NCBI RefSeq assembly: GCF_029223255.1
Contig: NZ_JARHUC010000005.1
Coordinates: forward strand, 124,001-188,000
Source of the DNA: Albimonas marina
GTDB lineage: Bacteria > Pseudomonadota > Alphaproteobacteria > Rhodobacterales > Rhodobacteraceae
DNA: 64,000 nt
Direction: 5' to 3'
Each line of letters starts with the position of its first letter. Positions within the stretch are counted from its first letter, which is position 1. The notes beneath the pieces were generated by a model. The model saw only the letters and a program-made list of their open reading frames with translations. It was not told the origin of the DNA and made no database searches. The position numbers and the translations under genes were made by a program. Positions 11,929 through 27,418 of this stretch are shown here, one piece after another.

Positions 11929-11934
11929 CGCCGC

Positions 11935-11990
11935 CGCGGCGGTTCCGACCGCCGCGCCTCGCAGCTTGGCGGCGGCTTTGGCCGCCAAGC
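11935..11990. promoter_or_regulatory. Two adjacent perfect stem-loops between crotonase genes
   Basis: The first hairpin pairs CGCGGCGGT (11935-11943) with ACCGCCGCG (11948-11956) around TCCG. The second pairs GCTTGGCGGC (11964-11973) with GCCGCCAAGC (11981-11990) around seven bases. Both are perfect; neither has a T tail. They may limit read-through into the second crotonase gene. Confidence 0.5.
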
Positions 11991-12075
11991 CTCGCCCCCT
12001 GGGCCCGCCTGCGCGCGCGCCGCGCCCCGGCGCGCCCCGCGACCGCCCTCCTCCTCTCCAGCGAAAGGCCCCGCC

Positions 12076-12909: not shown

Positions 12910-12963
12910 GCCCGCCGCCGCAGCACCAGGCGCCCCCGCGCGACGCCCGCAGGCCCGCGCGAA

Positions 12964-13127
12964 GCGCCTGTTCTTCGGAGCCGTCCGTCGCTGATGCCGT
13001 TAAGAGCGAGTCGGCGGGAGGGGTCAGGGATCGCGAAGCGACCCCGCGCAAGCGGGGCTTGTCCTTGACCCCTCCCGTCGACTCGCTCAGGCATCACCAG
13101 CGACGGACGGATCCGAAGGACAGGCGC
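12964..13127. repeat. 164-bp inverted repeat with ~67-bp arms (MITE-like or bidirectional terminator)
   Basis: The left arm (12964-13031) and right arm (13061-13127) are reverse complements over about 67 bases with a few mismatches and small indels. Both begin GCGCCTG, share CCGTCCGTCGCTG, then GAGCGAGTCG and CGGGAGGGGTCA. The 29-base centre folds into a second hairpin, CCCCGC-GCAA-GCGGGG (13042-13057), closed by a GNRA-type tetraloop. It lies between convergent genes. There is no transposase or obvious target duplication. It could be a MITE, a REP-like element, or a double-sided terminator. Confidence 0.85.
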
Positions 13128-13227
13128 GGCCCCTGTTCTTTGGTGAGCTCCCGAAGCGTCCTTCCGGGCGCGCAAGCGCCCCCGCGCAGCGGCCAGCCGA
13201 CGAGCCCCGCCTCGGAGGCCCCCCGTC

Positions 13228-15360
13228 TCAGCCCGCGCGCCGCACGATCAGCAGCGTGATGTCGTCCGACTGCTCCACGCCTTCCTCGAAGCTCTTCACC
13301 GTCTCCAGCATCGCCGCCGCCACCGCCTCGGGGTTCTGCCCGCCCAGCGGCGCGAGGCGTTCGACCAGGCGGTCCTCGCCGAACTGGTCGCCGCCGGCGT
13401 CGAAGGCCTCGGTCACGCCGTCGGTGTAGAGGACGAGGCTCTCGCCCGGGGCGAGGTCGAGGGCGAGCGTGGTGAACTCCAGCCCGTCGGCCACCGCCAC
13501 GGCCATGTCGCCGGTGGAGGGCACGAGGACCGCGCCGGCGGGACCGAGGCGCACCGGCGGCAGGTGGCCCGCGTTGACGATCTCGGCCCGGCCGGTGGCG
13601 GGGTCGAAGATGCCGAAGACCAGCGTCACGAACATCATGCGGTCGTTGTCGACGGCGAGCAGGTCGTTGAGCTGGCGCACGCATTGCGCGGGGTCGGGCT
13701 CGAAGAGAGCGATGGCCTTCAGCAGGGTGCGCGAGATCGCCATGAAGAAGGCCGCCGGCACGCCCTTGCCCGAGACGTCGGCGATCACGAAGACCAGCCG
13801 GCCGTCGGGCCGCTCGAAGAAGTCGTAGAAGTCGCCGCCGACCTCCTGCGCCGACTCCATCACCCCCTTCACCGCGTAGCCCGGCCGGTGGGCCATGTCC
13901 GCGGGCAGGACCGAGTGCTGGAGGTCGCGCGCGATCGCCAGCTCCTGCTGGAGGGAGGCGAGGCGGGTCTCGCGCACCAGCGCCTCGCGCAGGCGGGCGA
14001 CGAGTTCCGACAGGCGGCGGTGCTGGTCGACCACCCGGCCCGACATCTGCTGGAGGACCGCGGCGATGGGGCCGAGCTGGTCGTCCTCGCGGATCAGGCG
14101 GGCCATCGGGTCGGCGGGGGCCTCGGGCGCGGCGGGCTCGGGGGCGGGCGAGGCCTGCACCGGCGTCGGGCTTGCGGGCGCGCCGCCGCGGGTGGCGGCG
14201 ACGATGCGGCGGAGGTCGGCGAGCACCTCCTCGCGCGCGCCGGGCTCCAGCGTCTCGGCCAGCGCCTCCATCTGGCGGCGCACGAAGCGCTCCTGGCGGC
14301 GGCGCTGCAGCTCGCGCTGGCGGCGGGCGTCGTCGAGCGCGCGCAGGCTGCCGCGCAGGCGGGCGACGGCGGAGGCGATCTGGCCGATCTCGTCGTCGCC
14401 CCCGGCCGGCAGGCGGGCGGTCATGTCCCCGCGCGCCAGCGCGCCGAGCGTGCCGACCGCGCGTTGCAGGGGCGCGAAGCTGACCCGGAGATAGAGCCAC
14501 AGCCCCCCCACCGTCGCCAGCGCCACCGCCGCCATCACCACCAGCGTCGCGGCCGTCAGCCGGCCCAGCGCGCGCAGGCTGTCGGTGGCGTCCTGCACCG
14601 CCACCAGCAGCCCCGCCGTGCCCGAGGAGATGTCGGCGATGGGAATGGCGGTGACCGAGTAGAGCCGGTCGTCGAGCGGCGCCTGGCGCACCACGCCCTG
14701 GCGCTGGGGCAGCTCGACGCCCAGCGCGCGCCACAGGCGGGGGTCGGTGCCCTCGACCAGGCGGCCGCGGGTGGAGAGCAGGTAGCCCTCGGCCTGCATG
14801 GCCTGGGCGAAGTCCTGCAGGGGGCGGGCGGCGTTCACCCCCACCGCGATCACCGCGGGGGCGCCGTTCCAGGCCCCGAACTCGGCCGCCGAGATCACCC
14901 GGAACGCCCCCGGCGCGATCTGGCGCACGCCCCCCAGCGGGCGCCCGTTCAGGATCGCGCCGATGGTGGCGACGTCGAGCAGCGGCGGCGGCTCGGCCTG
15001 GGCGGCGGAGGCGTAGATCACCCGCCCCTGGGCGTCGAGGATCTGGAGGTCGGAGACCTCGTCCGCCATCAGCCGCGCGCGCATCAGGACCGAGCCGAGA
15101 CGGCGCAGGCGGGGGAGGTCGGCGGCGGCGGCGGCCTCCTGCACCGCGGCGTCGCCGGCGATGGCCTCGCGCAGCTCCGACAGGCGCAGGGTCTCGAGCT
15201 CGACGATCTTGCGCCACAGCGCGGCCTCGCCGGCGATGGCGACGCGGGTGTGGGGCTGGATGGCGAGGGACTCGCGCTGCAGGCCGATGGCGACGAGGGC
15301 GCCGAAGGCGAGCGCGAAGGCGAGGCTGACGATGATGGCGATGCGGGTGGAGAGAAGCAT
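13228..15360 (-). CDS. Membrane-bound SpoIIE/RsbU-type serine phosphatase with sensor and HAMP
   Basis: A 710-residue signalling protein. TM1 (about 8-26), a large periplasmic sensor (30-265) and TM2 (about 270-292) are followed by HAMP ('RVSFAPLQRAVGTLGALARG', about 293-345). A coiled-coil/linker region rich in Ala and Pro runs to about 480. The PP2C-SpoIIE domain (480-708) has all metal ligands: EVGGDFYD (506-513), DVSGKG (528-533), YTDGVTE (645-651), SDDITLL (698-704). It would dephosphorylate a STAS protein, such as the one at 25089-25427, upon a periplasmic signal. It is the last gene of a minus-strand operon and starts 3 bases after the HAMP-MFS gene ends. Confidence 0.95.
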   Translation of the reverse strand: MLLSTRIAIIVSLAFALAFGALVAIGLQRESLAIQPHTRVAIAGEAALWRKIVELETLRLSELREAIAGDAAVQEAAAAADLPRLRRLGSVLMRARLMADEVSDLQILDAQGRVIYASAAQAEPPPLLDVATIGAILNGRPLGGVRQIAPGAFRVISAAEFGAWNGAPAVIAVGVNAARPLQDFAQAMQAEGYLLSTRGRLVEGTDPRLWRALGVELPQRQGVVRQAPLDDRLYSVTAIPIADISSGTAGLLVAVQDATDSLRALGRLTAATLVVMAAVALATVGGLWLYLRVSFAPLQRAVGTLGALARGDMTARLPAGGDDEIGQIASAVARLRGSLRALDDARRQRELQRRRQERFVRRQMEALAETLEPGAREEVLADLRRIVAATRGGAPASPTPVQASPAPEPAAPEAPADPMARLIREDDQLGPIAAVLQQMSGRVVDQHRRLSELVARLREALVRETRLASLQQELAIARDLQHSVLPADMAHRPGYAVKGVMESAQEVGGDFYDFFERPDGRLVFVIADVSGKGVPAAFFMAISRTLLKAIALFEPDPAQCVRQLNDLLAVDNDRMMFVTLVFGIFDPATGRAEIVNAGHLPPVRLGPAGAVLVPSTGDMAVAVADGLEFTTLALDLAPGESLVLYTDGVTEAFDAGGDQFGEDRLVERLAPLGGQNPEAVAAAMLETVKSFEEGVEQSDDITLLIVRRAG

Positions 15361-15363
15361 GGC

Positions 15364-17550
15364 TCAGCCCTCCCGCCGGCGCAGGAGCAGGGCCGCAAGT
15401 AGGGCGAGGGCGGCGAAGACCAGCGTGGGCGCGCCCATCGGCGCCGCGAGCGCCCGGGCGAGGCCGGCGGCGGCGAGGCCCGCGGCCGCCCCCAGCGCAA
15501 GCGCGGCGAGCCCGCCGCGCCCGCCCCGCGCCGGCGCCGCCGCGCCCAGCGCCGCGCCCATGGCGAGGCTGGCGAGGAGGAGCGCGGCGAGGCTCGCCGC
15601 GGGGGAGGCGAGCGCCGCGGGGAGGTCGGCCGCGAGCATGGCGGGCGGCGCCGCGACGAGCTGCGCGAGCCCCGCGAGGCCCAGCGCCACGGCGCCGGCG
15701 GCGGTCGGCAGGCGCGGGGCGAGGAGGGCCGCGAGGCCGATCGCGGCCGCGAGGCCGCCTCCCGAGAGATAGTCGTCGTAGCCCGCCCCCAGCGGCAGCG
15801 CGACCAGCGCCGCGGCGGCGGCCGCCGCCGCCGCCATCGCCGCCAGCGCGCGCGTCGCCGGCGGCTCGGGCGCGTGCCGGGCGGGAGCCAGGCGGGCGGA
15901 GGGGGCGCCCGCGGCCAGCGCCGGCGTCGCCAGCAGCGCCGCGAGGCCGAGGGCGAGGAAGGCGGCGCGGCGACCGACCGCCTCGCCCAGCAGGCCGCCC
16001 AGCAGGGGGCCTGCGACGAGCGCCGCGAAGATCAGCAGGGCCCGCACCGCGCGCGGCGAGGCGGCGGGCGCGAAGGCCTTGGCCAGCGCCGCGCCCGCGA
16101 ACCCCGCGCCGAGGCCCGCGCCGAGGCGCAGCGCCGCGAAGAGCTCCCACGAGCGGCACCAGTAGGTGGCGGCGAGGCAGGCGCCGGTCAGCGCCAGCGC
16201 CAGCGCGCGCAGCAGCGCGACCCGGCCCGCCGCGCCCCGCCCGGCGAGGGCGCCGAGCAGCAGGGCCGCGAGCTCGATCAGCAGGGGGACCGCCGGTTGC
16301 CAGGCGGGCGAGGCCCACTCGGACCCGCGGTCGAGCGCGAAGTTCGCGACCAGCGGCGCCGCCCCCGTCCAGATCGCCAGCGTCAGCGCCAGCCGACAGG
16401 CGCCGGCGTCGGCGGCGGGGTCGAACGCGGGGGGGGCGGTCTCGGACGGCCGCGGCCCAAGCGCTGCGGGACCGGGGGCCGCGGCTTCGCGCACGGGCGG
16501 GCGGGACGCGGCCGGATCGTCGGCGTGCGGCTCGGCGAGGCTCGCCGAGACCACCGAGGCCGCGGCGGCCGGCGTGGCGGCCAGCAGCGCGGAGGGCATC
16601 GGCGCGGGGCGGGGTTGAGCGGATTGGGGCTGGGCCGGCTCGGGCGAGGGGAGCGACGGCTCGGCGGGAGATGAGACGGCCGGAGCGGCGGAGCCCGGCA
16701 CGGCGGCGCCCGGCGAGGCGAGGGCGCGGCGGGGGTCGAGCTCCTCCTCCTCCGTCGCGGGCAGGGTCCAGCGGGCGGCGACGGCGGCGAGCACCGGCTC
16801 GATCCGCCGGCCGAGGCTGCCGTCGAAGTCGATGGCGCGGATGGTGGCGGCGGCCTCCATCAGGCGCAGGCGCGCGGCCTGCACCCGCTCGACCTGGGCG
16901 CCCAGCGCCTCGGCGGCCTCGGCGAAGCGGCCGCGGGCGCCGGGGGGCGGGGCCTGCGCGAAATCGCCTTCGGCGGCGCGCTCGACCGCGCGGCGCAGGC
17001 GGCGGCGGGCGGGCGCCTGGGCGAGGCCGAGGAACCCCGCCGTCACCGCCCCCGCCGCGGCGCCGGCGAGCAGCGCGGTCAGCGTCAGCGCCGCGCGCAG
17101 GCGCGCCATCGCCTCGTCGAGCAGGGGCGAGGCGGCGGCGACCACCAGGGTCGCCTCGCCGGCGGCGCCGGAGATGGCGATGCGCTCGCCCTCCACCCGC
17201 TCGGCGGTGGCGGCGAGGGGGCGGCCGTCGGCGTCGAGCAGCGCCAGCGCCTGCACCTGGGGGGCGTCGCGGGCGATGCGCTCGAGATAGGGGGCGACGT
17301 CGGGCAGCCGCGCGAGCGGGATGCCGAGGTCGAGGGCGCGGGCGAACTGGCCGGCCACGGCCTGGCCCACCGCGACGGCGCCGGCCCGGGTGGAATCCGC
17401 GAGCGCGGGGACGGAGTAGGCGAGCCCCGCCCCCAGCATCAGCCGCCCCGCCAGCCCCACCGCGAGCGCGACCGCCAGCGCCACCACGAGCGCCGGCCCC
17501 CAGACCCGCCCGCGCGCCGCGCGCCCGGAGAGGAGGGCGGGCCGGCTCAT
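15364..17550 (-). CDS. Sensor-HAMP-MFS fusion protein, degenerate paralogue
   Basis: A 728-residue membrane protein of unusual build. TM1 (about 18-42), a periplasmic sensor (50-148) with DLGIPL (74-79) and DADG (106-109), TM2 (about 152-176), then a HAMP-like stretch with 'AVERAAEGDFAQ' (188-199) and helical residues to about 260. A Pro/Ala/Ser linker (265-380) follows, and about 390-724 is a multi-pass domain resembling MFS: RLGAGLGAG (475-483) as in TM4 and GPLLGGLLGE (514-523) as the motif C Gly-Pro-Gly-Gly of TM5. The motif A loop is degraded to 'LAGRGAAGR', so transport activity is doubtful. Its start overlaps the stop of an 82-codon frame (ATGA). A better preserved paralogue is at 19824-21839. 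Confidence 0.85.
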   Translation of the reverse strand: MSRPALLSGRAARGRVWGPALVVALAVALAVGLAGRLMLGAGLAYSVPALADSTRAGAVAVGQAVAGQFARALDLGIPLARLPDVAPYLERIARDAPQVQALALLDADGRPLAATAERVEGERIAISGAAGEATLVVAAASPLLDEAMARLRAALTLTALLAGAAAGAVTAGFLGLAQAPARRRLRRAVERAAEGDFAQAPPPGARGRFAEAAEALGAQVERVQAARLRLMEAAATIRAIDFDGSLGRRIEPVLAAVAARWTLPATEEEELDPRRALASPGAAVPGSAAPAVSSPAEPSLPSPEPAQPQSAQPRPAPMPSALLAATPAAAASVVSASLAEPHADDPAASRPPVREAAAPGPAALGPRPSETAPPAFDPAADAGACRLALTLAIWTGAAPLVANFALDRGSEWASPAWQPAVPLLIELAALLLGALAGRGAAGRVALLRALALALTGACLAATYWCRSWELFAALRLGAGLGAGFAGAALAKAFAPAASPRAVRALLIFAALVAGPLLGGLLGEAVGRRAAFLALGLAALLATPALAAGAPSARLAPARHAPEPPATRALAAMAAAAAAAAALVALPLGAGYDDYLSGGGLAAAIGLAALLAPRLPTAAGAVALGLAGLAQLVAAPPAMLAADLPAALASPAASLAALLLASLAMGAALGAAAPARGGRGGLAALALGAAAGLAAAGLARALAAPMGAPTLVFAALALLAALLLRRREG

Positions 17551-17795
17551 GCGCGCGCCTCGCCGGCGCGGGCCGGGCGGCGGGAGGGAGACGGGAGGAA
17601 GTCGAAGACCGGGCCGCAGGCGAGGAACGGTTGGCGGATGGGGTCCTGGTTGAATGCCACGGCCGGGCCGCTGGCGAGGGACTTGCGGAGGGCGGCGGCC
17701 GGGCGGCGGGCGAGGGGCAGGTTTCGGACGGGCGCCCGGTCGCGGGCGGAGGTCCGACAGGGGGCGTGGACCGGACGGGGCGCGGGTCGGGCCAT
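17547..17795 (-). CDS. Possible small protein (82 aa) wedged between sensor and HAMP-MFS genes
   Basis: I do not recognise this product. It is basic and Pro/Ala-rich, except for a segment near residues 45-68 containing 'AVAFNQDPIRQPFLACGPVF', which looks like genuine folded-protein sequence. The support is mostly positional. Its ATG lies 6 bases after the stop of the upstream sensor gene, and its TGA overlaps the ATG of the HAMP-MFS gene (ATGA), so it fits exactly into the operon. Third-position GC is a little lower than in the neighbours. It could be a small secreted or regulatory peptide, or a chance frame. Confidence 0.42.
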   Translation of the reverse strand: MARPAPRPVHAPCRTSARDRAPVRNLPLARRPAAALRKSLASGPAVAFNQDPIRQPFLACGPVFDFLPSPSRRPARAGEARA

Positions 17796-17801
17796 GCGCG
17801 C

Positions 17802-18542
17802 TCAGGCCTCGTCGGCCGCGAGGACCTCGGCCGCGGCGCGGTCGTGGTCGCGCACGGCGCGATCGGCGGCGGCGCGCACGCGGGCGGCGGCGGAGCCGGG
17901 GGCGGGCTCGACGGCGCCGGTCAGCCCCTCGATCAGGCGGCGCAGGTCGCGGGTGGTGCGGGAAAGGGCCCAGGCCACGGCGGCCAGCGCCAGGGCCAGC
18001 GCCAGCGGCGCGGCCCAGGCGGCGCGGGCGGCGAGCACCGCGGCCAGCCCCTCGGCATGGCGGGCGCGGGCGGCGTCGGAGATGGTGGCGGCGACGTAGC
18101 CCACCGGCTCGTCGAAATCGTTGCGCAGCGCCTCGCCCACCACGATGGCGCCCAGCTCCTCGACCCGCCAGCGGTCGTCGACCAGGCGGTAGGCGACGGC
18201 GCGCCGCCAGGCCTCGGGCACCGCCTCGCCGACCGCGCCGCGGTCGGTGTTGAACAGCGAGACGCCGGCGGGGGAGAAGACCTCGACCGCCAGCACCCGG
18301 TCGTCGGCGGCCTTGGCCTGCTCGACCAGGCCCTGGGCGACGCGCACGTCCGGCAGCGCGAGGCCGAGGCCCACGTTCGCCTCGATCGAGCCGCCGAGCT
18401 GGGCGAGGAGGAAGTCCATGTTCGCCTCGGCCGAGCGCAGGCCCAGCCGGTCCAGCCCGCCGAAGACCAGCGCCGCGGCGAGCGCCAGCGCGGCGGCCGT
18501 GACGCCCGCCAGGGCCAGGAGGATCCGGGAGCTGGGGGCCAT
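17802..18542 (-). CDS. Single periplasmic-sensor membrane protein with HAMP-like tail
   Basis: A 246-residue protein: TM1 (about 7-28), a periplasmic domain (29-165), TM2 (about 168-193) and a short cytoplasmic tail (194-246) with 'RTTRDLRRLIEGLTG', which looks like the first half of a HAMP. The sensor core has GLGLAL (58-63) and PAG (91-93). The two key glycines are 33 residues apart, the same spacing as in three neighbouring proteins. There is no kinase, cyclase or phosphatase output domain, so it must signal through a partner, presumably the HAMP-MFS or SpoIIE protein of the same operon. ATG 18542 is chosen as it directly precedes TM1; residues upstream in that frame are low-complexity. 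Confidence 0.8.
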   Translation of the reverse strand: MAPSSRILLALAGVTAAALALAAALVFGGLDRLGLRSAEANMDFLLAQLGGSIEANVGLGLALPDVRVAQGLVEQAKAADDRVLAVEVFSPAGVSLFNTDRGAVGEAVPEAWRRAVAYRLVDDRWRVEELGAIVVGEALRNDFDEPVGYVAATISDAARARHAEGLAAVLAARAAWAAPLALALALAAVAWALSRTTRDLRRLIEGLTGAVEPAPGSAAARVRAAADRAVRDHDRAAAEVLAADEA

Positions 18543-18973
18543 CGGGCGGGGGGTCTCGGGCGACGGGGGACGCGGGAATGGGCGGGCGGGACGGAACCGC
18601 GTCACGCTAGCCCGCGCCCCGGGGCCTGTCACCCGCCGAAATCGCGGAAGCGGCGGGAGGGGCGGGGATTTCCCGGGCGCGGGGGGAGGCCGGGCGGCGG
18701 GGCGCGGGGCGCGGCGCCGGCCCCCGGGCGGCGGCCGGGCCGGGCGCGGCGGGCGCCTCGCGCCGCGGGCGGAACGCCGGGGCCCGCGCGACGGTCGACG
18801 CGGCGCCTGCGGCAGCGACCGTCGCGCGAGCCGCCGGGGGGGCGCGGGCCGTGAGGGGGAGTGCATTTCCGGGCGGCGGGGCGGGGTGGGGCCTGTGCGC
18901 TGGGGAAGCGGCGTGGTAGCGTTTTCAAGCCGTTCCGGCCCTGTCGCAACGCCTGCTCCCGGCGGACCCCCCG
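18543..18973. other. Divergent promoter region of the sensory cluster
   Basis: About 430 bases between the two divergent sensor genes. Most is GC-rich low complexity. A strong stem-loop lies at 18785-18828 and a less GC-rich stretch, GTAGCGTTTTCAAGCC, near 18915-18930 is the best place for a promoter reading right. No coding frame is convincing. Confidence 0.5.
18785..18828. promoter_or_regulatory. 13-bp perfect inverted repeat in divergent region
   Basis: CGCGCGACGGTCG (18785-18797) is repeated inverted as CGACCGTCGCGCG (18816-18828) across 18 bases; allowing one mismatch the arms extend to GGC/GCC outside. It is placed between divergent operons, so it could be a shared operator or an RNA hairpin in the leftward leader. 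Confidence 0.5.
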
Positions 18974-19615
18974 ATGATTCGGCTCGCAGCCCGCACCCTT
19001 CCCGTCTTCGCCGCCATCATCGGCTTCGCCATGGCGCTGGCGGCCTACCTGAATTTCTCGGGCGTGCGCACCGCCTATCTCGACCTGGTGCGCGCCCGCG
19101 CCGACATGATCGCCACCGACATCGCCGCCGACGCCACCGCCGCCCAGGGCTTCGGCATCCGGCTGAGCGAGCAGCGCACGCTGGCCGAGCTGCTGGCCCG
19201 CCAGGCCGCGACCGACCCGCTGATCCTGTCGATCGACGTGACCGCCCCCGACGGGCGCATCCTGTTCTCGAGCGCCGCGACCCGCGTGGGCGAGACCGAG
19301 CCGCCGGAGGGCGAGGACCCCGCCTTCCGCCAGGCGCAGCCGGTGATCGGCGCGCTGGGCCAGCCGGCGGGGGAGGTGCTGGTGCGCCTCGACGACGCCG
19401 CGATGGACGCGACCGTGGCCGAGCTGCGCCGCGACGTGCTGTGGGGCGCGGCGCCCGCGGGCGCGGGCGCGGTGCTGACCGGCTGCCTGCTGGCGCTCGC
19501 CCTGCTCAGCCGCCTGCGCGCCAAGGCCCGCCGCGCCAGCGACGCCGAGCACGCGGACATGATCGCCCAGGCGGAGAACGAGATGGCCGGCCTGCGCCCG
19601 GGCGCGCGGCGGTGA
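18974..19615 (+). CDS. Single periplasmic-sensor membrane protein
   Basis: A 213-residue protein built like the divergently encoded sensor at 17802-18542: TM1 (about 10-27), a periplasmic domain (28-155), TM2 (about 160-179) and a short charged tail. GFGIRL (59-64) and APDG (91-94) place the two core glycines 33 residues apart. The fold is probably a small Cache/PAS-like ligand-binding domain (inference from size and topology). It lacks an output domain. A HAMP-MFS protein is encoded 208 bases downstream on the same strand, so the two likely work together. Confidence 0.82.
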   Translation: MIRLAARTLPVFAAIIGFAMALAAYLNFSGVRTAYLDLVRARADMIATDIAADATAAQGFGIRLSEQRTLAELLARQAATDPLILSIDVTAPDGRILFSSAATRVGETEPPEGEDPAFRQAQPVIGALGQPAGEVLVRLDDAAMDATVAELRRDVLWGAAPAGAGAVLTGCLLALALLSRLRAKARRASDAEHADMIAQAENEMAGLRPGARR

Positions 19616-19823
19616 GGGCCTCAGGCCGCGAGGGGCGGGACGAGGCGCAGGACGGGGACGGCCGGCGCCGGGGGACCGGCGCCGCGGCGACGCAGGACGG
19701 GAACCGGGGAGACGGGGGAGCGATGCGCGGGACGTGGGGAGCGGGGCGCGCGGCGCCGGACGCCGGAGCGGGCGCGGCGGGGAGCGGCGCGGCCTTGAGC
19801 AGCGCTGGGGGGAGCGGGGCGCG

Positions 19824-21839
19824 ATGAGGAGCCTTCGGGTCCGTCTCTCGGCCGCGCTGCTGGCGGCGCTGATGGTGGCGCTGGTCGCGATCTCCTTCGA
19901 GACGGTGCGCCGGGCGGAGGCCGTGCTCTCGCCCGAGATCGAGCGCAAGGCCGTCACGCTGGCGGACTCGAGCGCCGCCCTGATCGGCAAGGCGCTGGCG
20001 CTGGGCATCCCGGCGGAGAAGCTGCACGGGCTCGACGAGCACTTCGCGCGCCTCGTGGCGGCCAACGACGACGTGGCGTGGATCGCGCTCGAGGGACCGG
20101 ACGGCGCGCCGCTGCGGATCGTCTTCGCCGAGGGCGAGGAGCAGACCTCGGGCGGCGATCTCGTCTCGCGCCCGGTGCCGCGGGCGGGGCCGGACGCGCC
20201 GGCCTACACGGTGACCGTGGGGCTCGATCCCGCCTTTGCGCGGGAGGTGGTCTCGACGCTGTGGATCGACCTCGCCATCGTCATGTTCGTGACCGCGGTG
20301 GTGGCGCTTGAGCTGATCTACGTGGGCTTCGGCGACGGGCTCTACGCCGCCATCGAGGGGGTCGAGCGGCGGCTGCACAACATCTCCCGCGGGGACCTGC
20401 GCAGCCACCAGCCGGTGGAGGCGCGGGGCGAGTTCGGGGCGCTGGCCCGGGCGCTCGACGGGCGGATCGAGCGGGTGCACGCGGCCTACGCCCAGATCCG
20501 CGACCGCGCGGTCGAGAGCGGCGACCGCGCCGCGCGCCAGGCGCTGGAGATGCTGCAGGACCGCTTCGGCCTGGGCCAGATGCTGGGCGCGGGCGGCGCG
20601 GGCAAGGTGATGGCGGTGCGCGCGCCCCTCTTCGTCTTCATGCTGGCCGAGGAGCTGACCCGCCCCTTCCTGCCCGTGCATGTCCGCGCGCTGGCGCAGG
20701 CCGCGCAGGGCGAGGGCGCGCTGGCGGGGATGGACCCGGCCTTCGTCGCGGCCCTGCCGATGATGGCCTTCCTCGCCGTGGTCGCGATCTGCCAGCCGCT
20801 GCTGGGCGGGGTGACCGAGCGGATCGGGCGGCGGCGCTCGCTCGCCGTCGGGGGGGCGGTGGGGCTGGTGGGGTACGCGGCCTCGGCCTTCGCCGACGGG
20901 CTCGCGGTGTTCGCGGCGCTGCGGGCGCTGACGGGGTTCGGCTTCGCGATGGTGTTCGTGGGGGCGCAGGGCTACGTGATCGACGCGACGGAGCCGGCGC
21001 AGCGCTCCTCCGGCATGGCGGTGTTCATCTCGGCGATCCTGGTGGCGGGTGTCTGCGGGCCGCCCATCGGCGGCATCCTGGTGGACCGGGCGGGCGTGCC
21101 GGGGACCTTCCTGGTGGCCGGGCTCTTCGCGGGCCTGTCGCTGCTGCTGGCCTGGCTGGTGATGCCGAAGGCGGGGCCGGTGCGCGCGGGCGGACCGGCG
21201 ATCCGCTGGCGGGAGTTCGGGCGCGTTGTCGCCTCGCCCTCGCTCGCCGCCCTGTTCTTCCTGTGCGCGATGCCCGCGAAGATCATCCTGGTGGCCTTCT
21301 GCTTCTTCCTCGTGCCCCTGCAGCTCGAGGCGCTGGGCTCCACCCAGGCGGCGACGGGGCGGATGCTGATGATCTATCCCATCGTGATGGTGCTGCTGGT
21401 GCCGGCCTGCGCGAAGCTCGCCGACCGCTGGCAGGCGCGGGCGGGCTTCGTGGCGGCGGGCGGGCTGGTCGCCGGCGCCTCGGCCTTCGCGCTGGCGGGC
21501 GGCGGCGCGCAGGAGCCGGCGCGCATCGCCGTGATGCTGCTGGGGCTGGGGCTGGGACAGGCGATCTCGATCGCCGCGCTCTCGGGCCTGGTGGGGGACT
21601 ACGGGCGCCGGCACGCGCACGAGGTGACCGAGGGCTCGGTCTACGGCATCTTCCGGCTGGTGGAGCGCACGGGCAACGCCCTGGGGCCGCCGGTCGCGGG
21701 GGCGCTGCTGGGGCTTTACGGCTTCGCGGGCGCGGCGATGATCGTGGGGGGCGCGGTGATGGCCTGCGCCCTGGCCTTCGGGCTGGCCGCGCTGGCGCTG
21801 CGGCCGCGGGACCTGGAAGCCGACGGCGTGGAGGGCTGA
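19824..21839 (+). CDS. Sensor-HAMP-MFS fusion protein (transporter-receptor)
   Basis: A 671-residue protein joining a receptor to a transporter. TM1 (8-25), periplasmic sensor (30-143) with ALGIPA (59-64) and GPDG (91-94), TM2 (about 146-168), HAMP (168-222, 'RRLHNISRGDLRSHQPVEA'), then an alpha-helical linker to about 262. Residues 265-660 form a complete 12-TM MFS domain with motif A GGVTERIGRRRS (328-339), 'RALTGFGFAMVF' in TM4 and motif C with GPPIGG (412-417). ATG 19824 has GGGGGAG about 9 bases upstream. The binding-protein gene starts 3 bases after the stop. Periplasmic ligand binding could gate transport, or the MFS part could be a receptor. I know of no characterised member. Confidence 0.88.
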   Translation: MRSLRVRLSAALLAALMVALVAISFETVRRAEAVLSPEIERKAVTLADSSAALIGKALALGIPAEKLHGLDEHFARLVAANDDVAWIALEGPDGAPLRIVFAEGEEQTSGGDLVSRPVPRAGPDAPAYTVTVGLDPAFAREVVSTLWIDLAIVMFVTAVVALELIYVGFGDGLYAAIEGVERRLHNISRGDLRSHQPVEARGEFGALARALDGRIERVHAAYAQIRDRAVESGDRAARQALEMLQDRFGLGQMLGAGGAGKVMAVRAPLFVFMLAEELTRPFLPVHVRALAQAAQGEGALAGMDPAFVAALPMMAFLAVVAICQPLLGGVTERIGRRRSLAVGGAVGLVGYAASAFADGLAVFAALRALTGFGFAMVFVGAQGYVIDATEPAQRSSGMAVFISAILVAGVCGPPIGGILVDRAGVPGTFLVAGLFAGLSLLLAWLVMPKAGPVRAGGPAIRWREFGRVVASPSLAALFFLCAMPAKIILVAFCFFLVPLQLEALGSTQAATGRMLMIYPIVMVLLVPACAKLADRWQARAGFVAAGGLVAGASAFALAGGGAQEPARIAVMLLGLGLGQAISIAALSGLVGDYGRRHAHEVTEGSVYGIFRLVERTGNALGPPVAGALLGLYGFAGAAMIVGGAVMACALAFGLAALALRPRDLEADGVEG

Positions 21840-21842
21840 GCG

Positions 21843-22874
21843 ATGAGCGCGAACGATGCACCCGCGGGCCTGGGCCGGCGCGCCTTCCTGGGCGGCGCCG
21901 CGGGCCTGCTGGCCGCCGGCGCCGCCGGGCCGGGCCGGGCGCAGGCGCGGCCCTGGCGCATTTACCGCGTCACCTACCGCGGGCGCACCGAGGTCGAGGA
22001 CGGGTTCGACGACTACCTCGCCGCCAACGGCATCGCCGCCGAGTTCATCGAGCGCGACGCCGACCGCGACCCCGCCAAGCTCCCCGGCTTCGTCGAGGAG
22101 ATCCGCGCCGAGAAGCCGGACCTGGTGGTGACCTGGGGCACCTCGGTCACGCTGGGCATCGCGGGGCGCCACGACGACCCCGATCCCGCGGCGCATATCC
22201 ACGACATCCCGGTGGTCTTCGCCCTGGTCTCGGCCCCCGAGAAGTCGGGCCTGGTCGAGAGCAACGAGGCGCCGGCGCGCAACGTCACGGGCGCGGTGCA
22301 CATCGTGCCGCCCGAGACGCAGCTGCGCGCCATGCACTCCTACCGCCCGATCGAGAGCCTGGGCGTGCTCTACACCGCGTCCGAGGAGAACTCGGTCGCC
22401 ATCGTGGACGAGCTGCGCCGCCTGCGCGGGGAGATGGGCTTCGACCTGGTCGAGCGGCAGTTCCGCATCGACGGCGACGCCCGCCCCACGCCCGACGGGA
22501 TCGAGGAGCTGATCGCCGAGATCAAGGCGGCGGGGGCCAACTGGCTCTACCTGCTGCCGGACACCTTCCTCGGCACCCAGTACGACCGGGTGGTGCCGGC
22601 GGCGCTGGACCAGCGGCTGCCGACCTTCGGGGCGGCGGAGCTCGCGATCCGCAAGGGGGGCGCGCTGGTGGGGCTGATCTCGCGCTATTACTCGGTGGGG
22701 CAGCTCGCGGCCTCGAAGGCGGCGCGGGTGCTGCGCGACGGGGAGGATCCGGGGACCATCCCGATCGAGACGCTGAAGCGGTTCTCGCTGATCATCAATC
22801 TGCCGGTGGCCGAGGCGCTGGACCTGTATCCGCCCATCGAGATGCTGAATTACGCCGAGGTCCTGACGGGCTGA
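21843..22874 (+). CDS. Tat-exported solute-binding protein (PF04392-like)
   Basis: A 343-residue periplasmic binding protein. The N-terminus has a twin-arginine signal, GRRAFLGG (11-18), then a hydrophobic run and an AxA-like cleavage region (about 33-36). The mature part looks like the ABC_sub_bind family, two alpha/beta lobes: 'KPDLVVTWGTSVTLGIAG', 'DIPVVFALVSAPEKSGLV' and 'GALVGLISRYYSVGQLAA'. No ABC permease or ATPase gene is nearby; instead it follows the HAMP-MFS gene by 3 bases. It may present a ligand to the sensor-MFS protein. The ligand is unknown. Tat export implies folding in the cytoplasm, perhaps with a cofactor. Confidence 0.85.
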   Translation: MSANDAPAGLGRRAFLGGAAGLLAAGAAGPGRAQARPWRIYRVTYRGRTEVEDGFDDYLAANGIAAEFIERDADRDPAKLPGFVEEIRAEKPDLVVTWGTSVTLGIAGRHDDPDPAAHIHDIPVVFALVSAPEKSGLVESNEAPARNVTGAVHIVPPETQLRAMHSYRPIESLGVLYTASEENSVAIVDELRRLRGEMGFDLVERQFRIDGDARPTPDGIEELIAEIKAAGANWLYLLPDTFLGTQYDRVVPAALDQRLPTFGAAELAIRKGGALVGLISRYYSVGQLAASKAARVLRDGEDPGTIPIETLKRFSLIINLPVAEALDLYPPIEMLNYAEVLTG

Positions 22875-22976
22875 GGCCGCGGGGATACGGGCGGGGGGAT
22901 CCGGGCGCCGGCGGGGGGCGGCCGGGGATCGCCCCCCTGCCCTTTCGATCGCCCCCGATGCAGGAGAGACCGCGGG

Positions 22977-23732
22977 ATGAGCGCACCGGGCGACCAGAGG
23001 GGCCGCGAGGCGGCGACGCAGGACGCGCCGGGGCCGGGGGCGACGCAGGGCGCCTCCGCGGCGGCGCCGACGTTCCGCGCGCTGGGACCCGCGGACCTGG
23101 ACCGCGTCTACGCGGTGCATCTGCTGGCCATGGCCGCGGTGGGCGACCCGAAGCTGGTGAAGCCCGAGGACCGGGGGTTCTTCGAGCGGCTGCTGGGCGG
23201 CGAGGGCCGGCTGCTGGGCGCCTTCCGCGACGGGGAGCTGCTGGGCTACGGCGTGCTGCAGCTCCACCTGCCGCCGTCGGAGGATGCGCGGCCCTACCTC
23301 GGCATCCCGGCGGCGGAGGGGCTGGCGAAGCTCGCCGGGGCGGGGGTGCGTCCGGGGGACTGGGGGGCGGGGCTGCACGACCGGTTCATCGAATGGCGGG
23401 TGACGGAGGGGGCGCGGCTGGGGATCGAGCATCTCTACGCCACCGCGGCGCCCGGCAATCCGCGGAGCTGGGCGAACCTGATGGCCGGCGGCTTCGCGGT
23501 GCGCGCGCTGGAGGAGAAATACGGCGGCCACCTGCGCTACCTGATGTGGCGGCGCGCGGCGACGCCCGCCGCGACCGCGGCCGAGGCGCCCCCGCCCGAG
23601 GGCGCCGAGGGCCTGTGGCTGCCCGCCGAGGACGCCCCCGCCCAGCGCGCCGCGCTGGAGGCCGGGCGCCTGGGCCTGCGCTGGCGCCGCCGCCCCGACG
23701 GCGGCCGCGACCTGTGGTACGCCCGCCCATGA
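22977..23732 (+). CDS. GNAT-like acetyltransferase
   Basis: A 251-residue protein with a low-complexity N-terminus (1-32) and then an acetyltransferase-like fold. 'FRALGPADLDRVYAVHLLAM' starts it, 'LLGAFRDGELLGYGVLQLH' is the central strand, and 'HLYATAAPGNPRSWANLMAGGF' is the usual GNAT segment near the CoA site and helix 4. The C-terminal 50 residues are an extra charged region. The substrate is unknown. GGAGAG precedes ATG 22977. Its TGA overlaps the ATG of the alanine racemase gene, so the two are translationally coupled. Confidence 0.72.
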   Translation: MSAPGDQRGREAATQDAPGPGATQGASAAAPTFRALGPADLDRVYAVHLLAMAAVGDPKLVKPEDRGFFERLLGGEGRLLGAFRDGELLGYGVLQLHLPPSEDARPYLGIPAAEGLAKLAGAGVRPGDWGAGLHDRFIEWRVTEGARLGIEHLYATAAPGNPRSWANLMAGGFAVRALEEKYGGHLRYLMWRRAATPAATAAEAPPPEGAEGLWLPAEDAPAQRAALEAGRLGLRWRRRPDGGRDLWYARP

Positions 23733-25036
23733 GCCGAGCCGAGGATCCCGACGCCCGCGCGCTGGGCGGGAGCGAGGGCGCGCCCCCGGATCTCGGGCAT
23801 GGGTCCTCGCACGGCCCCTCCACGGAGAAGCCCGTCGACGCCCGCGAGGCCGCGGGGGCGGAGGGCGCCTCTGCGGGGACCGGCGGCGGGGAAGGCGGCC
23901 TCGGTCCGGCGCCGGCCCGATCCGGCGACGCGCCGCCGGCCGAGGCGGCGCGGCCGGAGATGCGCCCGGTGCTGACGGTCGATCTGGACGCGATCCGGGC
24001 GAACTGGGCGGCGTGCCTGCGGCTGGCGGGGGGCGGGGGCCTCTCGGCGGTGCTGAAGGCCGACGCCTACGGGCTGGGACTGGTCGCGGTGGCGCGGGCG
24101 CTGGACGGCGCCGGGTGCCGGGATTTCTGGGTCAACGACCTCGCCGAGGCCGCCCGCCTGCGCGCGGCCCTGCCCGGGGCGCGGGTCTTCTGCCTGATGG
24201 GGCTGGCAGGCGGCGCGCCGGCGGACTTCGCGGCGCTGCCGGCGATCCCGGCGCTGGTCTCGCCCCAGGAGGTCGCGCGCTGCGGCCGCCATGCCGCCGC
24301 CACGGGGGCGGCGATGGAGGTGGCGCTGCAGCTCGACACCGGGCTGGGACGGCTGGGACTGTCGGAGACGGAGGCGGAGCGGCTGGGGACCGAAGGGCTC
24401 GCGGGGCTCTCGGTCGTGGCGCTGGTCACGCATCTCGCGGCCTACAACCTGCCCGACGATCCGGGCAACGCCGCGCAGCGGGCGCGGCTGCGGCGGATGG
24501 CGGGGCGGCTGCCGAAGGCGGCGCTGAGCCTCTCGGCCTCCTCGGGGCTGTTCATGGGGCCGGAGTGGCGGCTGGACCTCGCCCGGGCGGGGAGCGCGCT
24601 GGTCGGCACCCAGACCTCGGTGCGCTTCCAGCCGGGGCTGCGGCCCTGCTATTCGCTGGCGGCCCCCGTGGTCGCGGTGACCGAGCATCCGGCGGGGCGG
24701 CGGCTGGGCTATCGCGGCGCGGGGGTGCTGGCGCGGCCCTCGCGCATCGCCACGGTGGCGGCGGGCTACGCCGACGGGCTGCCGCAGGCCTATGCGCAGG
24801 CCGGCCGGCCCCGCTTCGGCGAGGTCCCGGCCCCGGTGGTGGGGGGCGTCGCGATGAACCTCACGATGCTGGATGCGACCGACGCGCCCGAGGGCGCGGT
24901 CGGCCCCGGCGCGCAGGCGATCCTGCTCGACGCCCGCGCCCCGGTCGAGGCGCTGGCCGAGGCCATGGACTGCGCCCCCAACGTCCCCCTCGCCCAGATC
25001 GGCGCCGCGGTGCGCAAGGTCTACGTCGGGGGGTGA
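23729..25036 (+). CDS. alr: Alanine racemase with N-terminal extension
   Basis: A PLP enzyme that interconverts L- and D-alanine for peptidoglycan or D-alanine use. The 435-residue frame has about 75 extra low-complexity residues before 'RPVLTVDLDAIRANW'. VLKADAYGLG holds the PLP lysine (Lys110), and GYADG around Tyr347 matches the second catalytic region of Alr; 'VGGVAMNLTMLDAT' is the C-terminal beta-domain contact. The long extension is odd. Either it is real, or translation starts downstream, but no better start with a ribosome site is visible and the overlap with the GNAT stop (ATGA) favours 23729. Placement next to signalling genes is unusual for alr. Confidence 0.9.
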   Translation: MSRAEDPDARALGGSEGAPPDLGHGSSHGPSTEKPVDAREAAGAEGASAGTGGGEGGLGPAPARSGDAPPAEAARPEMRPVLTVDLDAIRANWAACLRLAGGGGLSAVLKADAYGLGLVAVARALDGAGCRDFWVNDLAEAARLRAALPGARVFCLMGLAGGAPADFAALPAIPALVSPQEVARCGRHAAATGAAMEVALQLDTGLGRLGLSETEAERLGTEGLAGLSVVALVTHLAAYNLPDDPGNAAQRARLRRMAGRLPKAALSLSASSGLFMGPEWRLDLARAGSALVGTQTSVRFQPGLRPCYSLAAPVVAVTEHPAGRRLGYRGAGVLARPSRIATVAAGYADGLPQAYAQAGRPRFGEVPAPVVGGVAMNLTMLDATDAPEGAVGPGAQAILLDARAPVEALAEAMDCAPNVPLAQIGAAVRKVYVGG

Positions 25037-25088: not shown

Positions 25089-25427
25089 TCAGCCGGCGGA
25101 GAGCTCGGCCAGCGCGGTGGGGGCGTCGGGCCAGATGCGGAACAGCTTGGCGAAGCCGGAGATGTCGAAGACCTCGCGCACCGGGGCGCTCATCCCGCAC
25201 AGGCCCAGCGCCACGCCGGTCGCCTTCGAGCGGCGCGCACCCAGCAGCAGCACCCGCAGGCCCGCCGAGGAGATGTAGGAGAGCGCGGCGAAGTCCACCA
25301 GCACCGGCTCGCTCCCGTCGAAGCGGGGCAGCAGCGCCTCCTCCAGCGCGCGGGCCGAGTTGCTGTCCACCCGCCCCACCGGGCGGATCACCGCGACCCC
25401 GCCCTCCGTCTCCGTCTGGATCTCCAC
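25089..25427 (-). CDS. STAS-domain anti-sigma factor antagonist (RsbV/SpoIIAA-like)
   Basis: A 112-residue single STAS domain. 'VAVIRPVGRVDSNSARALEE' is the first half, and YISSAGLRVLLLG carries the phosphorylation-site region, with Ser54 two residues before the conserved Gly as in RsbV and SpoIIAA. In partner switching the unphosphorylated form binds the anti-sigma kinase and frees its target. It is third and last in a minus-strand operon after a class III cyclase and a HATPase kinase, and the membrane SpoIIE phosphatase at 13228-15360 is an obvious candidate to reactivate it. No sigma factor gene is in the window. Confidence 0.93.
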   Translation of the reverse strand: MEIQTETEGGVAVIRPVGRVDSNSARALEEALLPRFDGSEPVLVDFAALSYISSAGLRVLLLGARRSKATGVALGLCGMSAPVREVFDISGFAKLFRIWPDAPTALAELSAG

Positions 25428-25462
25428 CGTCGCTCTCCCCTCTCCTGCGTCTCGTGCGTCGC

Positions 25463-25885
25463 CTAGCCGTCCAGCCGCTTGACCAGGGTCACCTCGTTGA
25501 TCCCGTCGCGGCGCGCGTAGGCGACCTCGTCCATCATCGACTGCACCAGGTGGATGCCCAGCCCCCCCACGGCGCGGTCGTCGAGCTCCGCGTCCACGTC
25601 GGGCGCCTCGGCCCCGGTGGGGTCGAAGGGGCGGGCGTCGTCGCGCACCACCGCCGTCGCCGCCCCGTCCGAGAGCGTGATCGAGACCTCGATCCGCCCC
25701 GTCGCGCCGTCCTCATAGCCGTAGCCGATGGTGTTGGTCAAAAGCTCGTCCAGCGACAGCGCCAGCGCGTGGGCGGCGCCCATCGGCAGGTCCTGCGCCT
25801 CGCAGAACGCCTCCACCGCCTCGGCCAGGCGCCCGACCTCGGCGAGATCGTTGGCCAGGACCAGGCGCAGGGCGGGCCCGCTCAT
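25463..25885 (-). CDS. Anti-sigma factor-type HATPase serine kinase (RsbW-like)
   Basis: A 140-residue GHKL ATPase of the RsbW/SpoIIAB type. The N box is ELLTN (47-51), a G1-like box is RDDARPFDP (81-89), and the glycine-rich G2 box is VGGLGIHLV (106-114). Such kinases phosphorylate a STAS antagonist and sequester a sigma factor or another partner. Its ATG at 25885 overlaps the stop of the cyclase gene (ATGA) and the STAS gene follows after 35 bases, so kinase and antagonist are an operon pair. The partner that is held by this kinase is not evident nearby. Confidence 0.92.
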   Translation of the reverse strand: MSGPALRLVLANDLAEVGRLAEAVEAFCEAQDLPMGAAHALALSLDELLTNTIGYGYEDGATGRIEVSITLSDGAATAVVRDDARPFDPTGAEAPDVDAELDDRAVGGLGIHLVQSMMDEVAYARRDGINEVTLVKRLDG

Positions 25886-27087
25886 CGCCGCGCCTCCGCG
25901 AGGGCGGGGGCGAGGGGGCGCACGCGGTAGACCGTCTCGCGGCCGAACTTCTTGGGCAGCTCCTTCTCGCCCACGTAGTCGACCGCGAAGGCGGGCGGCA
26001 CGGGGCGCCCGGTCAGGCGGGCCTCGTGCTCGGCCGCGTCCATCTCGGCGCGCAGCAGGGCAACGAAATGCTGGGAGGCGTAGATCTCCCCCGGCGCGGC
26101 CACCGCCTCGATCCGGGCCGCGCGGTTCACGTGGTGGCCGAAGATCATCGAGCGGCCGGTCAGCGGGTGCAGGCCGACGTAGACGGGGCCCGCGTGAAGC
26201 GCCACGCGGAAGCGGGGGCGGGCCTCGAGGCCGAAGCGCTCGAGCTCGAGCTCCGCCACGCCGGCGGTCAGCTCGGCCGCGTAGCCGGCGAGGTCGGTGG
26301 CGGTCTCGGCGGCGGCGTGGACCGCGTCGCCCCAGGTGTTGATCAGGATCGGGGCGGTCGCGCGCGCCTCGATGCGGGTCTGCACCTCGGCGAGGAAGTC
26401 CCACAGGAGCGGCACCTGCTCGTCGCGCAAGGTCGAGTAGGTGGCGAGGTCGGCGAAGAAGATCGCGCGCACCACCAGCGGGCTGGCGCCGAAGGCGAGC
26501 GCGCCGAGGTCGGGGTCGATGTCCGCCGGCGCGCCCGCGCGGGCGTCGCCGCGGGGATCGTCCAGGTCGATCAGGGACAGCCGCTCGATCTCGGGCCACT
26601 GGTCCATGAAGTCGGCGGGGGAGCCGGGCTCGGCCGGGGCCGAGGGGCTCCAGCAGGCCAGCAGGCGGGCGGCGCCGCCCCGGTTCTCGGCATGGAGGCG
26701 GGCGAGGCCCTGCAGGACCTGGTTGTTGAAGCGGAGCTGGATCTCGTCGCCGGCCAGGCGCTCCTCCCCCGAGGTTTCGAAGCGGGCGGCGGCGGCGCGC
26801 ACGGCCTCGAACCGGGCGAGGTGGCCGGGGCCGGCGGGGGCCACGTGCCATTGCGCGAAGTCGTCGGGCGCGCAGGGCAGGAACAGGTGCAGCTCGGCCC
26901 CGCGGGCGAGGGCCGCCTCGGCGAAGATCAGGCCGGGGCCGGCCGAGGGGCAGGTGTAGGCGACCGCGGCCTCGGGCGGGAAGGCGGCGGCGATCTCCTC
27001 GCGCAGGGCGGATTCGCAGGCGGGGGTCAGCCACGCCGGCTCGGCGGCGTAGGGGGCGGCGCACAGGATCACGGTCTCGGCGGTCAC
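25882..27087 (-). CDS. Class III adenylate/guanylate cyclase, soluble
   Basis: A 401-residue cytosolic protein. Residues 1-195 form an unrecognised N-terminal domain ('ELHLFLPCAPDDFAQWHVAP', 'GGAARLLACWSP'). Residues 205-385 are a class III cyclase domain with both metal-binding aspartates (Asp213 in FFADLATYS and Asp254 in TWGDAVHAA) and the transition-state residues Asn321 and Arg325 in NRAARIE, so it should be active. The start is taken as GTG 27087, 8 bases after GGGAGG; an upstream ATG at 27153 would add 22 residues. It is the first gene of the operon with an anti-sigma kinase and a STAS protein, linking a cyclic nucleotide to partner switching. Confidence 0.9.
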   Translation of the reverse strand: MTAETVILCAAPYAAEPAWLTPACESALREEIAAAFPPEAAVAYTCPSAGPGLIFAEAALARGAELHLFLPCAPDDFAQWHVAPAGPGHLARFEAVRAAAARFETSGEERLAGDEIQLRFNNQVLQGLARLHAENRGGAARLLACWSPSAPAEPGSPADFMDQWPEIERLSLIDLDDPRGDARAGAPADIDPDLGALAFGASPLVVRAIFFADLATYSTLRDEQVPLLWDFLAEVQTRIEARATAPILINTWGDAVHAAAETATDLAGYAAELTAGVAELELERFGLEARPRFRVALHAGPVYVGLHPLTGRSMIFGHHVNRAARIEAVAAPGEIYASQHFVALLRAEMDAAEHEARLTGRPVPPAFAVDYVGEKELPKKFGRETVYRVRPLAPALAEARR

Positions 27088-27418
27088 CGGCCGGTCCTCC
27101 CTCGCCTCACGCACGTCGGGGGGACTGTAGGGGGCGGCCGGGCGCGGGCGCAAGCGGCGAGCGGGGGAGAGGCGGGCGGGGGGGAGAGGCGGGGGCGGAC
27201 GGGGCGCGGCGAGGCGCGGGGTTGCGCCGGGCGGCGGGGGGAGCGATGACGTGGGGGTCGGCGCGGAGCCCCGCGCTCCCGTCCCGTCCCCCCTGCGCCC
27301 CGCGACCCCGCGTCGCCGGACGCGGCGGAGCGGAAGGGTCTAGAACCTTCCCTGCCGACAGGCAGGCGCGCCGCAGGGTCCCTGCCCCTTCCGCAGGCAA
27401 GAGCAAAGGAACACGATC
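27088..27418. other. Divergent intergenic region, cyclase and phosphatase genes
   Basis: About 330 bases. The left half is GC-rich low complexity; the right half holds palindromes at 27332-27351 and 27351-27366 and AAAGGAA before the phosphatase start. No gene is seen. Confidence 0.5.
27332..27366. promoter_or_regulatory. Palindromes upstream of the phosphatase gene
   Basis: GGAAGGGTCTAGAACCTTCC (27332-27351) is palindromic at 18 of 20 bases. It is followed directly by the perfect CCTGCC-GACA-GGCAGG (27351-27366). They lie about 60-90 bases before ATG 27419, where an operator would be expected. Confidence 0.4.

Follow-up and report, generated by a model that had tools for sequence, protein, structure and literature searches.

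A predicted sensor-HAMP-MFS fusion and its degenerate counterpart in Albimonas marina suggest a little-described wiring of periplasmic sensing to transport

HAMP domains drive kinases, cyclases, phosphatases and chemotaxis receptors, and in the fusions of transporter and receptor known to us, such as CbrA, the transporter lies upstream of a catalytic domain. UhpC, a protein of the major facilitator superfamily (MFS), is not known to have a periplasmic sensor or a HAMP domain, and the same is true of MdfA, NorA and VMAT2, which are H+ antiporters of the DHA1 type. This report concerns a locus within a 64,000-nucleotide stretch of the 5.85 Mb genome of Albimonas marina (contig NZ_JARHUC010000005.1, positions 124,001 to 188,000; hereafter the window), in which one protein, senMFS1, joins a Cache-like sensor, a transmembrane (TM) helix and a HAMP-like unit to an MFS part, and a homologous protein, senMFS2, has a degenerate MFS part. 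Going by an extract of PMC8871633, CbrA and CrbS, in which an SLC5 transporter is joined to a histidine kinase, resemble senMFS1 in holding a transporter and a signalling unit in one polypeptide, and it is debated whether their signalling needs transport. They differ in that their transporter is N-terminal and feeds the kinase, whereas in the senMFS proteins the sensor and HAMP-like unit precede the MFS part and no catalytic output follows. UhpC and UhpB, in the same extract (PMC8871633), resemble senMFS in that a receptor stands beside a signalling partner; the difference is that the MFS part of senMFS1 is predicted to be of the DHA1 exporter type. MdfA, NorA and VMAT2 are its best fold and profile matches, and the senMFS1 family shares with them conserved buried charges and motif-C glycines. 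A sensor-HAMP-phosphatase resembling SiaA and a partner-switch logic recall SiaABCD of Pseudomonas aeruginosa, in connection with which titles and abstract starts mention no MFS or PF04392 module; the window locus differs in its partners, a STAS and an RsbW-like protein, and its phosphatase scores 57.8 bits against SiaA (NF038263), below the equivalog cut-off of 700 bits. Titles and abstract starts from an open-access library announce neither a HAMP-MFS fusion nor a HAMP feeding a transporter, and in that library exact phrases such as HAMP-MFS returned 0 papers. Transporter-receptor fusions are known as a kind, and there is a fair chance that senMFS represents a new class of effector for sensor-HAMP receptors.

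senMFS1 is encoded by a single unbroken open reading frame (ORF), in which Pfam identifies MFS_1 (E 5.4e-34) at aa 270-596 and HAMP at aa 180-212 with 17.5 bits (E 0.005), below the gathering cut-off of 25 bits. That cut-off is exceeded by homologues such as L080 (33.0 bits) and L077 (41.7 bits), the latter also matching MFS_1 and, below threshold, sCache_3_2; when 39 homologues were scanned singly, MFS_1 was found in all 39, HAMP in eight and sCache_3_2 in two, the best match of the last being 3.5e-5 and 24.3 bits against a cut-off of 28.4. In the AF2 model of senMFS1 (mean pLDDT 86.0, pTM 0.80; all AF2 predictions are of monomers) the sensor part consists of a long N-terminal helix and four strands (84-134), TM2 runs into a first HAMP helix (136-188), a connector (189-202) leads to a second HAMP helix (203-232), and the MFS helices begin at aa 259. 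Foldseek ranked MdfA (E 7.8e-12) and VMAT2 first for this model and also matched NorA, and the MFS part of a profile of the 39 homologues, compared with the PDB, matched 3wdo (which we take to be YajR), VMAT2, NorA, MdfA and EmrB. With its HAMP part the same profile matched the histidine kinase 9trk (8.2e-6, positions 195-258, where no single stretch passes alone) and the sensory rhodopsin II transducer 2f95 (2.7e-4, positions 180-268). Comparison by hhalign with the neighbouring HAMP-SpoIIE family, represented by 11 sensor-HAMP-SpoIIE proteins and one cyclase from L133, aligned aa 174-218 only (E 1.9e-4, probability 47%). HAMP domains carry Pro, GD and DExG-like signature columns; in the senMFS1 family a helix-connector-helix with these columns directly follows the TM helix, all 39 homologues having at least 50 residues in the HAMP columns, with G190 in 35, D191 in 29, G205 in 31 and P176 in 21. 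A HAMP-like unit between TM2 and the MFS part of senMFS1 is supported by the model, the profiles and the aligned columns.

An earlier, first-pass annotation of the window had taken both large proteins for sensor-HAMP-MFS fusions of one kind. For the gene at 19824-21839 this agrees with Pfam, AF2 and the profiles; the product of 15364-17550 is homologous over its full length, with a degenerate MFS part and no Pfam match to HAMP or MFS, so that the fusion is real and the equivalence is not, one protein keeping the transport residues and the other being a predicted pseudo-transporter. It is scarcely conceivable that the fusion is an artefact of frame or assembly: split genes do occur in L140 and L146, but the idea is refuted by dozens of unrelated genomes in which the gene is one intact ORF. 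L140 is the only split case among the 59 loci described below, and L146 lies outside that set; the fusion gene is in several pieces at ~9962-12080 of L140 and ~9179-12170 of L146, where the short sensor is apparently affected too. Genes were called with a script of our own that uses codon bias and takes the longest ORF where a locus shows little bias, and their starts and some gaps are approximate.

The buried charges of DHA1-type antiporters carry transport. In 51 rows of the senMFS1 family (type A), E277 and R367 are each kept in 50, K486 in 47, and R611, E614 and R615 in all 51, and the motif-C glycines are kept along with these buried acidic and basic residues. senMFS1 is probably a working exporter-receptor, its sequence predicting an H+ antiporter of the DHA1 type.

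In the window two operons diverge from a 431-base spacer (Table 1). On the plus strand the order is sen2, senMFS1 and a PF04392 binding protein, then a GNAT-like gene and an alanine racemase; on the minus strand it is sen1, senMFS2 and a sensor-HAMP-SpoIIE gene, and further on, also on the minus strand, STAS, RsbW-like and cyclase-like genes (25089-27114). All six genes of the first-pass annotation were recovered where it had placed them. Its gaps of 0-8 bases hold at 15360/15364 and 21839/21843 (3 bases each) and fail elsewhere (251 bases between sen1 and senMFS2, 208 between sen2 and senMFS1, and the spacer), and the cluster that it had ended at 22874 runs on to 27114, through the GNAT-like, racemase, STAS, RsbW-like and cyclase-like genes.

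Searches were run on 61 genomes of relatives, on 385 from the class and on the genome_contigs collection, the last giving 49 named loci, and a sensor-MFS match at 1e-30 was found in 34/385 genomes of the class. Removal of those at least 95% identical reduced 70 type-A anchors (profile E < 1e-90) to 59 loci, a count that leaves out double-sensor, type-C and senMFS2 proteins. A short output-less sensor lies directly upstream of senMFS in 57 of the 59, with a 4-base overlap at 37 of these 57 junctions; of the two loci without a profile-matched sensor upstream, one is at a contig end and the other, L086, has a 243-aa two-TM gene outside the sen profile. sen1 itself is placed in the sen family by the way the family profile was built. 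Directly downstream of senMFS, 51/59 loci have a PF04392 protein, overlapping by 4 bases in 18, and the eight others comprise three contig ends (L088, L111, L119), an upstream binding protein in L051 and L079, a divergent one in L084 and L085, and the split gene of L140. The sen-senMFS-binding protein module occurs in Alpha-, Beta- and Gammaproteobacteria, its hosts including Jiella, Mesorhizobium, Chelatococcus, Azospirillum, Terasakiella, Roseibium, Marivita, Ideonella, Rubrivivax, Vibrio and Marinomonas, and the nearest named relative in the scan, Albimonas pacifica (L101), has 88% identity in the fusion protein. The source genome has exactly two PF04392 genes, and these immediately follow its two non-degenerate sensor-MFS genes, one after each; the second copy of the module is on contig C4. 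Because this three-gene module is conserved, it is strongly implied that the halves of the fusion and their neighbours work together. In 13 further loci (L037, L038, L090-L100) there is no separate short sensor and the MFS protein is N-terminally extended instead; the senMFS profile matches the sensor part twice in 12 of the 13 extended proteins and once in L092. The two-TM sensors that the first-pass annotation had called output-less are present, and since the extended proteins replace the separate sensor in these 13 loci, taking them for partners of the fusion is the better reading. The extended, double-sensor proteins appear to be natural fusions that argue for a physical partnership of short sensor and senMFS.

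senMFS2 has neither a HAMP nor an MFS match in Pfam. By hhalign it is a homologue of the senMFS1 family across 574 columns (99.9%, E 1.9e-33), and in Foldseek its AF2 model (pLDDT 72.7, with a low-confidence linker at aa 266-371) finds MFS folds (NorA, E 2.7e-6). Among 11 senMFS2 rows the charges E277 and R611 remain in one each and K486, E614 (one row has D) and R615 in none, and the scaffold features R367, P413, G416 and G424 are kept in 10, 11, 8 and 11 respectively; by these residues senMFS2 is a pseudo-transporter whose transport residues have been lost. Its homologues form one group (13 rows, support 99) in a quick tree with long branches, where joins of this kind may be false according to a warning from the program, and the operons that hold them together with sen and a sensor-HAMP output are divergent or colinear. 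Right after the HAMP region, at aa 239-246, the motif AIDFDGSL is found in about 10 of the 11 rows. Shortened forms occur in L083 (502 aa, 7 predicted TM), L123 (405 aa) and L125 (382 aa), whose sensor-HAMP parts agree with the senMFS2 profile; that the MFS part has eroded there is inferred from gene position and from the homology of the sensor. In a fused protein of L084 and L085 that has no MFS part, a sensor-HAMP unit leads directly into sensor-HAMP-SpoIIE; this unit scores slightly better with the senMFS2 than with the senMFS1 profile (1.2e-32 against 5.5e-26 in L084, 1.4e-29 against 6.1e-27 in L085), and the fused protein of L084 has a Pfam HAMP of 45 bits and SpoIIE. In L133 the third gene is a dCache-HAMP-Guanylate_cyc in the place of SpoIIE. 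Given the loss of charges, the shortened forms, the L084 and L085 fusions and the exchange of output in L133, operons that end in a catalytic receptor seem able to do without the MFS half, which is strictly retained in the form that is coupled to the binding protein.

The reading tentatively preferred here, at somewhat less than even confidence, is that a periplasmic signal controls a DHA1-type exporter through a three-part receptor-transporter, and that the degenerate copy signals only. A ligand, free or on the binding protein, would be read by a Cache-like periplasmic heteromer that unites the short sensor with the sensor half of senMFS1, and TM2 and the HAMP-like unit would pass the change to the MFS half; this would act as an H+-coupled exporter of the DHA1 type, so that the output would be transport of some exported molecule. 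The pair of sen1 and senMFS2 would have kept the sensor and the membrane scaffold and lost transport, and with the sensor-HAMP-SpoIIE protein it would form a signalling-only receptor, whose phosphatase may dephosphorylate the STAS protein and thereby shift its RsbW-like partner in a partner switch. Slightly more doubtful is the broader proposal that senMFS1 stands for a new class of signalling protein, in which the effector of a sensor-HAMP unit is a secondary transporter (a ligand-gated H+ antiporter), that the three-gene receptor module has been plugged into partner-switching, hybrid-kinase or type VI circuits, and that the transporter was stripped more than once to leave an ordinary receptor.

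An alternative that is nearly as likely as the exporter reading, if itself rather unlikely, is that senMFS is a transceptor: the MFS half would detect substrate occupancy or flux, and the HAMP and sensor dimer would inform HAMP-SpoIIE proteins, hybrid kinases or type VI, transport being incidental. The absence of a cytoplasmic output domain on the fusion points this way, as do the MFS scaffold that senMFS2 keeps without transport residues and the signalling or secretion genes near the modules: SpoIIE near 20/59 loci, abhydrolase and histidine phosphatase near 9/59 and type VI near 13/59, counted with profiles built from few members within a 10-kb radius in the sequence retrieved, so that misses are possible. 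UhpC and CbrA offer precedents (PMC8871633, in extract). Nevertheless, the sensor and the binding protein already face the periplasm, which makes a detector in the MFS half seem redundant, and the antiporter charges are near-invariant. We know of no HAMP that relays a signal from a membrane unit at the C-terminus back to a sensor at the N-terminus, which also counts against a transceptor.

Several observations weigh against control of an exporter through the HAMP-like unit. Pfam finds HAMP at E 0.01 in 8/39 homologues only, and hhalign probabilities against a true HAMP family are 47% for senMFS1 and 20% for senMFS2. No Pfam HAMP was found in the double-sensor proteins of L038, L090 and L093; in most double-sensor proteins the senMFS profile jumps from the sensor (up to ~180) to the MFS part (from ~265), and L038 has a gap at the HAMP region. 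HAMP is therefore not needed in every version of the fusion, and in double-sensor proteins TM2 would couple the sensor directly to the transporter. The type-C relatives (L087 and L089; Azospirillum lipoferum, 505 aa) match over the MFS part only. The TM segments that remain in L083, L123 and L125 show no significant similarity to the MFS part; the copy of the module on contig C4 has no SpoIIE, STAS or RsbW homologue within the 18.5 kb examined; and the conserved charges of senMFS1 would suit a substrate-binding receptor too. The absence of HAMP from the double-sensor relatives lowers confidence in the exporter reading and in the broader proposal, and raises it in the unlikely explanation that sensor and HAMP merely dimerize or localize a constitutive exporter without gating it, to which the divergent HAMP and the existence of MFS-only relatives also lend themselves. 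A mere scaffold is difficult to reconcile with the retention of a binding protein and a second sensor across nearly all type-A loci, and with an AF2 sensor fold of fair to good confidence. As for their surroundings, the type-C genes of L087 and L089 neighbour a binding protein and SpoIIE-family genes (a receiver-SpoIIE in L087, which also has a hybrid kinase and a HAMP chemoreceptor), and the 505-aa protein of Azospirillum lipoferum, annotated 'MFS transporter', is followed by an abhydrolase, a histidine phosphatase and a chemotaxis receptor.

With regard to the circuits that the module would feed on the exporter reading, the sensor-HAMP-SpoIIE gene is the only SpoIIE match in the source genome. 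The cyclase-like and RsbW-like genes of the window overlap by 4 bases, and a homologue of the cyclase-like protein is fused to an RsbW-like domain in L071 (13298-15013) and also in L108; since the two are one polypeptide there, cyclase and partner switch are probably linked. The tyrosine phosphatase family gene that adjoins the cyclase gene in the window does so also in L034 of genome G001, which belongs to the same genus. The loci with an abhydrolase and a histidine phosphatase are from Betaproteobacteria, and seven of these nine have a hybrid-kinase homologue, that of L117 comprising HisKA, HATPase, receiver and Hpt by Pfam.

The type VI loci are those with VgrG together with TssB and TssC nearby. 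The module lies inside type VI clusters in L121, L128, L129, L130, L132, L134, L135, L137, L138, L140, L143, L144, L145 and L149, whose hosts are Vibrio, Marinomonas and relatives and some Alphaproteobacteria (Marivita, Roseibium), with VgrG, DUF6931, TssA/B/C and PAAR in several. Pfam confirmed VgrG and DUF6931 in L134 and L143, PAAR and ImpA_N in L134 and Hcp in L143, and in both of these loci DUF6931 is directly 3' of VgrG. Genes for ImpA_N and Hcp occur in the Azospirillum locus L124 and one for Hcp in L076. At the left junction of VflT6SS1, an extract of PMC5371669 mentions genes for an MFS transporter and for the periplasmic component of an ABC system, purely as flanking genes. A type VI link in the source genome was rejected, there being no TssB (PF05591) match in it. 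Within the class, TssB is found in 9/34 sensor-MFS genomes and 60/351 others, which is no strong association, the two lists of 385 genomes being taken as the same draw. In three of the nine genomes (G310, G076, G051) TssB and sensor-MFS are on one contig, within ~12-24 kb; because such pairs are limited to three of nine, the type VI link is local and clade-bound.

The leader of the binding protein reads GRRAFLGG, which is twin-arginine-like, and its nearest NCBIfam family is TrpX (NF041285), at 94.4 bits, below the equivalog cut-off of 390. Among the genes called at 11080-28168 no ABC permease or ATPase partner was recognised; inspection by eye suggests an ABC-like cassette, including a binding protein of its own, at ~29987-34394. 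The GNAT family has weak GNAT matches only, and the alanine racemase was rejected as the only one of the genome, which has five Ala_racemase_N matches, one elsewhere scoring higher. These enzymes raise the very improbable alternative of a secreted-messenger loop, in which neighbouring enzymes would make an amino-acid-derived molecule, the MFS part would export it, and the binding protein and sensors would read it back. Enzymes of a suitable kind would be GNAT with alanine racemase, GNAT with ATP-grasp, GCS2 or a D-Ala-D-Ala-ligase-like protein; GNAT c2 is near 19/59 modules and alanine racemase near 10/59, ATP-grasp, GCS2 and ligase families stand beside other variants, and TrpX is named tryptophan-binding. 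Against such a loop, our profiles gave no match to any of these enzymes around the beta- and gammaproteobacterial modules, and the racemase may be an ordinary one. Clade-specific neighbours often belong to amide-forming families (L096:5262-6458, L093:9390-10955, L077:12132-13391, L075:6949-7917), being D-Ala-D-Ala-ligase-like, GCS2 and ATP-grasp, and also ketopantoate hydroxymethyltransferase-like. A GCS2-like ligase is directly downstream of the double-sensor MFS gene in L038 (10581-12149) and L093-L095 (Pfam-tested in L093), with a binding protein and SpoIIE nearby. It is possible that an exported amino-acid derivative is shared across clades.

Table 1. Features of the locus, in window coordinates.
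Feature	Position	Strand	Evidence or remark
Sensor-HAMP-SpoIIE (PP2C-type) phosphatase, SiaA-like	13228..15360	-	Pfam SpoIIE 1.4e-49, HAMP 36.6 bits
senMFS2: sensor/TM/HAMP remnant/degenerate MFS (predicted pseudo-transporter), 728 aa	15364..17550	-	hhalign, AF2, Foldseek, charge loss
sen1: output-less sensor, 246 aa, TM-periplasmic domain-TM	17802..18542	-	TM at aa 7 and 175; no Pfam match
Intergenic spacer between divergent operons, 431 bases	18543..18973	.	Divergent layout also in L101-L108, L111, L133
sen2: output-less sensor, 213 aa, TM-periplasmic domain-TM	18974..19615	+	TM at aa 8 and 160; no Pfam match
senMFS1: Cache-like sensor/TM/HAMP-like/12-TM MFS of predicted DHA1 type, 671 aa	19824..21839	+	Pfam, AF2, Foldseek, PDB profile matches
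PF04392 periplasmic binding protein	21843..22874	+	Pfam ABC_sub_bind 5.5e-27
GNAT-like acetyltransferase (family c2)	22977..23732	+	Acetyltransf_1 sub-threshold; GNAT structures in PDB, best E 0.0025
Alanine racemase	23729..25036	+	Ala_racemase_N 4.6e-42, Ala_racemase_C 3.9e-21
STAS anti-anti-sigma-type protein	25089..25427	-	Pfam STAS 6.8e-18
RsbW-like HATPase_c_2 protein	25463..25885	-	HATPase_c_2 1.8e-25 (scanned in a longer ORF)
Class III nucleotide cyclase-like protein	25882..27114	-	Guanylate_cyc 3.5e-8, 33.7 bits
Tyrosine phosphatase family protein, adjoins cyclase gene	27419-28168		Y_phosphatase3 1.7e-49

In summary, the senMFS module suggests a little-described wiring of sensing to transport and, if the proposal that a sensor-HAMP receptor acts on an exporter is true, periplasmic sensing can control transport directly. 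An apparently active form and a stripped pseudo-transporter stand side by side in the window, with shorter forms in other genomes, and signalling by transport may therefore be tested against signalling by shape within one locus.

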